Shown here in pieces: positions 3,263-3,405 of a stretch of DNA of 32,982 nucleotides. The notes beneath the pieces are model-generated. The model ran no database searches and was not told where the DNA came from. It saw nothing but the letters and a program-made list of their open reading frames with translations. Source of the DNA: Gemmatimonadaceae bacterium. Its GTDB lineage: Bacteria; Gemmatimonadota; Gemmatimonadetes; Gemmatimonadales; Gemmatimonadaceae. The stretch spans positions 1 to 32,982 of the forward strand of contig JADZAN010000038.1 of the NCBI GenBank assembly GCA_020852815.1, written 5' to 3'. The translations under genes and the position numbers were made by a program. The first letter of the stretch is position 1, and each line of letters opens with the position of its first letter.

Positions 3263-3297
3263 AAAAACGCCCCTCGGCACTAAGCGCGAGAGGCGTT
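3263..3297 (-). terminator. Intrinsic terminator/attenuator in the metY leader
   Basis: On the minus strand AACGCCTCTCG (3297-3287) pairs with CGAGGGGCGTT (3276-3266) across a 10-nt loop. This gives an 11-bp stem with one G-U pair, running straight into a T5 tract (3267-3263). It sits about 100 nt before the metY start, so it can only act as a regulated attenuator. Confidence 0.8.
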
Positions 3298-3309
3298 CCC
3301 TCGGCGCTT
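3282..3309 (-). promoter_or_regulatory. Antiterminator stem competing with the metY attenuator
   Basis: AAGCGCCGAG (3309-3300) pairs with CTCGCGCTT (3290-3282) on the minus strand with a single bulged C. The 5' side of the terminator (3297-3287) lies inside this hairpin, so the two structures exclude each other. The first three bases (AAG, 3309-3307) are also the end of the aptamer motif GCTAAAG. Ligand-bound aptamer would therefore remove part of the antiterminator and let the terminator form (inference). Confidence 0.65.
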
Positions 3310-3376
3310 TAGCTCTTTGGTTCGGGCTGGTGCCCCGGCGGGAGCAAGTGGCCATAAATCCATCCGCCGTGATCCT

Positions 3377-3405
3377 AGAGTATCCGGTCGACCTCCGTGC
3401 GTCAA
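3377..3405 (-). promoter_or_regulatory. Sigma70-type promoter of metYX
   Basis: Minus strand TTGACG (3405-3400) and TACTCT (3382-3377) are separated by exactly 17 nt. The predicted start, about 7 nt further on, falls near 3370, immediately before the P1 stem of the candidate riboswitch. Confidence 0.65.

Follow-up and report, generated by a model that had tools for sequence, protein, structure and literature searches.

How is metY controlled in an uncultured Gemmatimonadaceae bacterium, and does the RNA in front of this gene belong to a known riboswitch family? The window (the whole stretch of DNA that was analysed, 32,982 nucleotides) carries metY and a metX-like gene on its minus strand. 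A first-pass annotation, made from the sequence alone, proposed that they are preceded by a SAM-II-like aptamer wired to a terminator/antiterminator switch, in what looked like a non-proteobacterium. Every element of that proposal is present on the minus strand between 3405 and 3263 (Table 1), and the suggested kind of host fits a related locus assigned to Gemmatimonadales. We conclude, with a probability of roughly 0.85, that the metY leader is an OFF riboswitch that acts on transcription and belongs to the SAM-II/SAM-V superfamily. Its unusual part is the aptamer variant rather than the terminator.

Table 1. Features of the metY leader and the genes downstream, in the order of transcription (window coordinates).
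Feature	Position	Strand	Basis or remark
Promoter -35 element TTGACG	3400..3405	-	Sequence; TTGAC[A/G] in 10/10 class-B leaders
Promoter -10 element TACTCT	3377..3382	-	Sequence; 17-nt spacer; 7 nt 5' of P1
P1 5' strand GGCGG	3364..3368	-	Paired in 26/26; possible extra pair C3369-G3336
GATTTA third-strand motif (SAM-II core)	3355..3360	-	Invariant in the eight seed sites
P2a 5' strand GGC	3351..3353	-	Pairs with GCC 3305-3303
P2b 5' strand CTTGC(T)	3343..3348	-	Pseudoknot with A-GC-(UA)-AAG; CTTGC = 3348-3344
P1 3' strand CCGCC	3337..3341	-	Pairs with 3368-3364
Inserted hairpin P3, GGGC ACCA GCCC	3324..3335	-	3' of the P1 3' strand; arms 3335-3332 / 3327-3324
L3 linker GAACCAAAG, A-rich	3315..3323	-	Conserved in alignments A3/A4
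P2b 3' strand AGCTAAAG	3307..3314	-	GCTAAAG = 3313-3307; its AAG also starts the antiterminator
P2a 3' strand GCC	3303..3305	-	Three-pair helix; present in the window and nearly all relatives
Antiterminator	3282..3309	-	AAGCGC 3309-3304 with GCGCTT 3287-3282; GAGGG 3302-3298 with CTCTC 3292-3288
Intrinsic terminator, 11 bp, AACGCCTCTCG/CGAGGGGCGTT	3266..3297	-	Arms 3297-3287 / 3276-3266
Terminator T5 tract	3263..3267	-	Sequence
metY Shine-Dalgarno GAGGAG	3170..3175	-	Sequence; 7 nt 5' of the ATG
metY, O-acetylhomoserine aminocarboxypropyltransferase	1840..3162	-	NCBIfam TIGR01326, 675.5 bits, cutoff 495.1
metX-like homoserine O-acetyltransferase	727..1764	-	Best match NCBIfam TIGR01392, 302 bits, below the curated cutoff of 500

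The leader begins with the promoter that had been proposed, which has a 17-nt spacer and stands before P1. The same TTGAC[A/G]-17-TAnnnT arrangement occurs in nine of the ten class-B leaders (the window included), and the tenth has an 18-nt spacer. Promoter and P1 are 5-8 nt apart at 8/10 of these sites and 17 nt apart at 2/10. Control of metYX agrees with the metY and metX-like genes found downstream. Beyond metX, at 59-781, the window contains repeated GC-rich sequence, one frame of which reads like LRWEGG..GSQLALGRW and which resembles an array of dispersed or tandem repeats.

The window has the sequence motifs of SAM-II (GAUUUA 3360-3355, UUGC 3347-3344 and GCUAAA 3313-3308) together with its fold, a P1 stem and an H-type pseudoknot P2 with two bulged bases (UA). 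GATTTA, CTTGC, GCTAAAG and the pseudoknot pairing CTTGC.GC(UA)AAG, which leaves UA bulged, were all located as the first-pass annotation had described them. Two features had been missed. The first is the P2a helix, known from SAM-II (PMC6061858), which forms between the linker after GAUUUA and the 3' end of the aptamer and overlaps the antiterminator strand. The second is an additional P2b pair, T3343-A3314, which is the best-covarying pair of the pseudoknot. In SAM-II and SAM-V, contacts from the UUU third strand, UUG and CUAAA form the SAM site (PMC6061858), and these core motifs are kept in the window and in nearly all relatives. GATTTA shows single changes in two relatives (L165 and L167). 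In the metH clade (L168-L182) it is replaced by GATTTG, and most of these sites have one extra bulged P2b base (G-[U/C]-CUAAAG); lying near the ligand site, these differences might affect how tightly or how selectively the ligand is bound.

The aptamer departs from SAM-II in its hairpin. The added GGGC/GCCC hairpin reported by the first-pass annotation is present, and its four pairs covary. SAM-II lacks a stem-loop P3 (PMC6061858), whereas the window has one at 3335-3324. In SAM-V, a P3 stem-loop lies directly 3' of the P1 3' strand and is followed by As that lie in the P1 minor groove (PMC6061858); by analogy, the L3 linker would be expected to face the P1 minor groove in the window RNA. Since the window hairpin sits exactly at the SAM-V P3 position, the variant joins a SAM-II core and expression platform to a SAM-V-like P3. 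Besides the added P3, the window variant differs from SAM-II (RF00521) in its GGCGG P1 and its L3, AACCAAAGA. The gap between P1 and GATTTA is 2-3 nt in the variant, compared with at most one in canonical SAM-II sites of the window's order.

Covariance models of known families did not recognize the site. No Rfam family reached threshold anywhere in the window, and a permissive Rfam search over 451 bases listed neither SAM-II nor SAM-V families at E<=10. The cut-offs used were 36 bits for RF00521 (SAM-II), 41 bits for RF01826 (SAM-V) and 44 bits for RF01726 (SAM-II long loops). RF00521 identified two canonical SAM-II sites in the window's own genome, at 40.6 and 38.2 bits, and the window site was absent from its matches there even at E<=10. 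The canonical sites lie at G000:C36:119438-119512 (L001), upstream of a homoserine dehydrogenase gene, and at G000:C2:407176-407252. In the same genome, RF01726 gave no match at E<=10 and RF01826 none at E<=1. The window and every tested hairpin-bearing relative fall below the RF00521 threshold, and tested hairpin-bearing sites scored at most 18.3 bits with RF01726 against its cut-off of 44. A weak match to the SAH riboswitch at 3225-3281 (17.1 bits, gathering 37) coincides in part with the terminator and was dismissed as a chance hit.

A core-motif pattern applied to 99 related genomes revealed two types of site, canonical and window-type. Canonical sites are common, have a CGTGGC/GCCACG P1 and lie upstream of metH, metF and hom, while window-type sites combine a GGCGG/CCGCC P1 with the hairpin. 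In a first test with RF00521, nine sites reached the threshold, all of them canonical, and none of the six window-type loci did so. A covariance model, R1, was then built from eight window-type sites and run on 395 Gemmatimonadota genomes; at E<=5e-10 per genome, 25 hairpin-bearing sites were recovered. Seventeen of these are not seed sites; an eight-site model that retrieves 17 further copies at this level makes the observation more than chance. Of the 25, ten come from the order of the window and the other fifteen from further families of its class. The gene after a window-type site is metY (eight cases, window included), an aspartate kinase gene or dapD, and the remaining hairpin-bearing sites have metH downstream wherever the gene is readable. 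Every readable downstream gene therefore belongs to the Met/Asp family (metY, metH, aspartokinase, dapD). The site upstream of dapD (L167), in the lysine branch, is an unexpected target for a SAM switch.

At E<=1e-4, R1 produced six matches of 51-60 nt in 349 genomes of two other phyla. No such hairpin was present in the matches inspected, which were set aside as hairpin-less SAM-II-type sites or as chance-like. The matches listed for a looser pattern run on the genome collection were mostly chance occurrences in A+T-rich genomes, and among those retrieved only L068 has a real P1 of the window type. The hairpin-bearing kind was found only in Gemmatimonadota in the present sampling.

Evidence for the fold came from comparison of the relatives. 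In a 26-row alignment, pseudoknot included, 98.8% of cells were paired, compared with 41-48% when partners were slid by 1-3 columns. With controls that ignore kinship, this alignment had 31 double-sided changes against a shuffled mean of 6.5, and the covariation score was 0.235 against 0.053 in shuffles. Alignment A4 was fitted to the covariance model. All four P3 pairs change on both sides among the 26 relatives, and the middle pair of P1 changes from C-G to G-C and U-A. The outer P2b pair was aligned by hand because most metH-clade sites have one extra bulged base; it is formed in 47 of 51 sites, as U-A, A-U, C-G, G-C or G-U. In 10,000 permutations, a control that ignores shared ancestry, the mean was 21.6 and the maximum 34, and none reached 47. 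Elsewhere in P2b, L167 has C-G swapped for U-A. P1 and the inner pairs of the pseudoknot hardly vary, and so their support is mostly conservation, with little covariation. The first-pass annotation had named two findings that would weigh against it: of these, the lack of an Rfam covariance-model match did materialize, but compensatory changes are present in P1, P2b and P3. Core motifs, covariation and R1 matches together support a SAM-II-like aptamer.

These comparisons also bear on how separate the variant is from SAM-II. R1 matches canonical SAM-II sites as well, at E values from 1e-7 to 1e-3, and one of its matches, L183, lacks the hairpin and passes the RF00521 threshold with 37 bits. L183 shares a family with two hairpin-bearing sites, supporting homology of the hairpin type with canonical SAM-II; with the R1 matches to canonical sites, it makes the two types look homologous. 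Within the window's order, canonical RF00521 sites stand before metH, metF, hom and similar genes, and the two types co-occur in the same genome. It could therefore be argued that the leader is an ordinary SAM-II switch, missed by Rfam simply because the hairpin and the 2-3 nt P1-GATTTA gap break the model. The common core, P2a/P2b and terminator logic would all be expected on this argument, as would a canonical SAM-II in the same genome and the RF00521 score of hairpin-less L183. However, a covarying hairpin at a single position, together with a characteristic P1 and L3, is common to 25 of 26 sites, and the hairpin sites span several families of the class and form a group of their own. We consider an explanation with no separate variant possible but doubtful.

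The ligand site raises a related question, namely whether the same fold and switch could respond to a compound other than SAM, such as S-adenosylhomocysteine or another sulfur metabolite. The GATTTG and the extra bulged P2b base of the metH clade, both near the binding site, are compatible with such a change. The window-type clade, on the other hand, keeps GATTTA, UUGC and CUAAAG; metY and metH are typical SAM-II targets, and shutting off metY fits SAM as the end product. A different ligand is thus unlikely, and we infer that the leader binds SAM.

The first-pass annotation proposed that the AAG of GCTAAAG (3309-3307) begins an antiterminator that excludes an 11-bp terminator with a T5 tail, and this arrangement was recovered in the window. 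When only the RNA made before the 3' arm of the terminator was folded, the antiterminator had 11 bp and -15.2 kcal/mol (z -2.8 versus shuffles). The layout is also found in most relatives, with a mean z of -1.8 in the window's clade and -0.9 in the metH clade. Of the 26 hairpin-clade sites, 25 have a terminator followed by a T-rich tail. In AAAGNGC, the variable base changes in step with its partner (AAAGCGC/GCGC, AAAGTGC/GCAC, AAAGAGC/GCTC), and at most sites the pairing is with the 5' arm of the terminator. When the antiterminator strand was tested by duplex energy against all of the downstream region, own and swapped regions could not be told apart (-9.45 versus -9.31; 891 of 5000), because the strand can also pair with the 3' arm of the terminator. 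The terminator alone is strong, at about -25 kcal/mol, as might be expected of a constitutive or factor-controlled attenuator that has no small-molecule aptamer. Such an attenuator would nevertheless leave the conserved pseudoknot core, its covariation and the homology to canonical SAM-II unexplained; we rejected it on the strength of that conserved, covarying core and consider it very improbable.

The antiterminator strand is the 3' strand of the pseudoknot. The ligand-bound aptamer and the antiterminator are therefore mutually exclusive, and we infer an OFF switch; an antiterminator and a terminator that exclude each other and overlap the aptamer are the arrangement of a terminator-type OFF riboswitch. 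In the model that we favour, transcription would start at P1. When SAM is scarce, the strand at the 3' end of the aptamer, CTAAAGCGCC, would be free and would pair with the terminator on its loop side and 5' arm, and with this antiterminator formed, RNA polymerase would proceed into metY-metX. Bound ligand would instead stabilize P2 (CTTGC.GC[UA]AAG plus P2a GGC.GCC), which would sequester the CTAAAGCGCC strand, allow the 11-bp terminator to fold and end transcription. P3 would act as a structural spacer beyond P1, presumably placed in three dimensions where SAM-V has its own P3. Directly observed are the sequence, the conserved structure with its compensatory changes, the conserved terminator/antiterminator, where the promoter sits and which genes follow.

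SAM-V and a few SAM-II switches control translation (PMC6061858), and by this precedent the aptamer might hide the metY ribosome site. The metY Shine-Dalgarno, however, lies about 130 nt past the aptamer and about 90 nt past the terminator, and is therefore not masked by the aptamer, whose strand pairs with the terminator instead. Translation control was rejected because of this distance and has a very low probability. Transcriptional control is also the usual mode among SAM-II switches. The founding SAM-II paper, by Corbino and colleagues, noted putative terminators after many representatives (PMC1273637), and Huang and Lilley described the majority as transcriptional, with the crystallised metX switch a rare translational case (PMC6061858). 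The first-pass annotation was thus wrong in its premise that SAM-II switches usually work at the level of translation, and in its suggestion that coupling to a terminator is unusual for them.

Compared with known families, the leader shares with SAM-II (RF00521; SAM_alpha, metA motif) the H-type pseudoknot P1/P2a/P2b, the bulged UA, the GAUUUA/UUGC/GCUAAA core, a promoter just 5' of P1, an intrinsic terminator and Met-regulon genes; it differs in falling below Rfam detection. SAM-V (RF01826) has a closely similar core, with P3 directly after the P1 3' strand and then As (PMC6061858). SAM-V is, however, translational and known from marine alphaproteobacteria and Bacteroidetes, whereas in the window a terminator is present and the Shine-Dalgarno is far downstream. 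The SAM-II long-loops family (RF01726) is, by its name, a SAM-II core with enlarged loops, and comes from Bacteroidetes and marine sources (PMC2864571). The SAM-II of the Sinorhizobium meliloti metZ leader and of tandem SAM-II/SAM-V leaders is predicted to terminate transcription (PMC9373788, PMC9481103). The text consulted assigns them to the SAM-II class and does not mention a P3 hairpin.

The metY gene appears to have a history of its own. Seven genomes of a different family (f2) have the same leader, and their MetY proteins share 81-86% identity with window MetY; the nearest MetY found in the window's own family is 67-72% identical. Two relatives of the same genus had no match to window MetY at E<=1e-100. 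Sequence comparison suggests that metY and its leader were acquired together by lateral transfer, with differential loss as the alternative on a weakly supported tree.

The seven f2 metY leaders (L158, L160-L165) contain a further element. The RNA past their first terminator encodes a peptide of 27-40 amino acids with 3-6 Cys codons (for example MRRCPCMCRCRCRC... and MCCRICMC...), about 80-200 nt after the aptamer. In all seven, a second strong terminator follows 18-29 nt after the peptide stop and before metY, and the 5' arm of this terminator pairs, in a similar register, with RNA that lies beyond the main Cys codons (GGGGTGGACnG and variants). This alternative pairing shows compensating differences (GGTGG/CCACC, GCGG/CCGC, GAGTGG/CCACTC), with weak significance in single-sequence shuffles. 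The arrangement resembles a trp-type attenuator, and the f2 leaders are probably two-input leaders in which a cysteine attenuator acts in series with the SAM switch. The window leader has neither a Cys-rich ORF nor a second stage, and matches to a motif pattern for this ORF outside the known leaders, in 394 genomes, look like chance. Cysteine leader peptides of Actinobacteria are likewise short, Cys-codon-rich ORFs upstream of sulfur genes (PMC1262725). The mycobacterial ones are without conserved terminator hairpins (PMC1262725), in contrast to the SAM switch and two terminators of the f2 leaders. No description of a metabolite switch in series with a cysteine-codon attenuator was found in the literature searched.

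Taken as a whole, we lean, by somewhat better than even odds, towards a distinct Gemmatimonadota clade of SAM aptamers in which the core and terminator of SAM-II are combined with the P3 of SAM-V and which may link the two families, with metY of one family also gated by cysteine and the window copy a transferred one that lacks the second stage. If this is correct, metY of the f2 family would be read only when SAM and charged Cys-tRNA are both low. The clade extends the SAM-II/SAM-V superfamily to members that Rfam misses, and annotation of the methionine regulon in Gemmatimonadota is therefore incomplete. The variant offers a natural test of the effects of P3 and of the P1 spacer on SAM-II function, and of a common origin of SAM-V and SAM-II.
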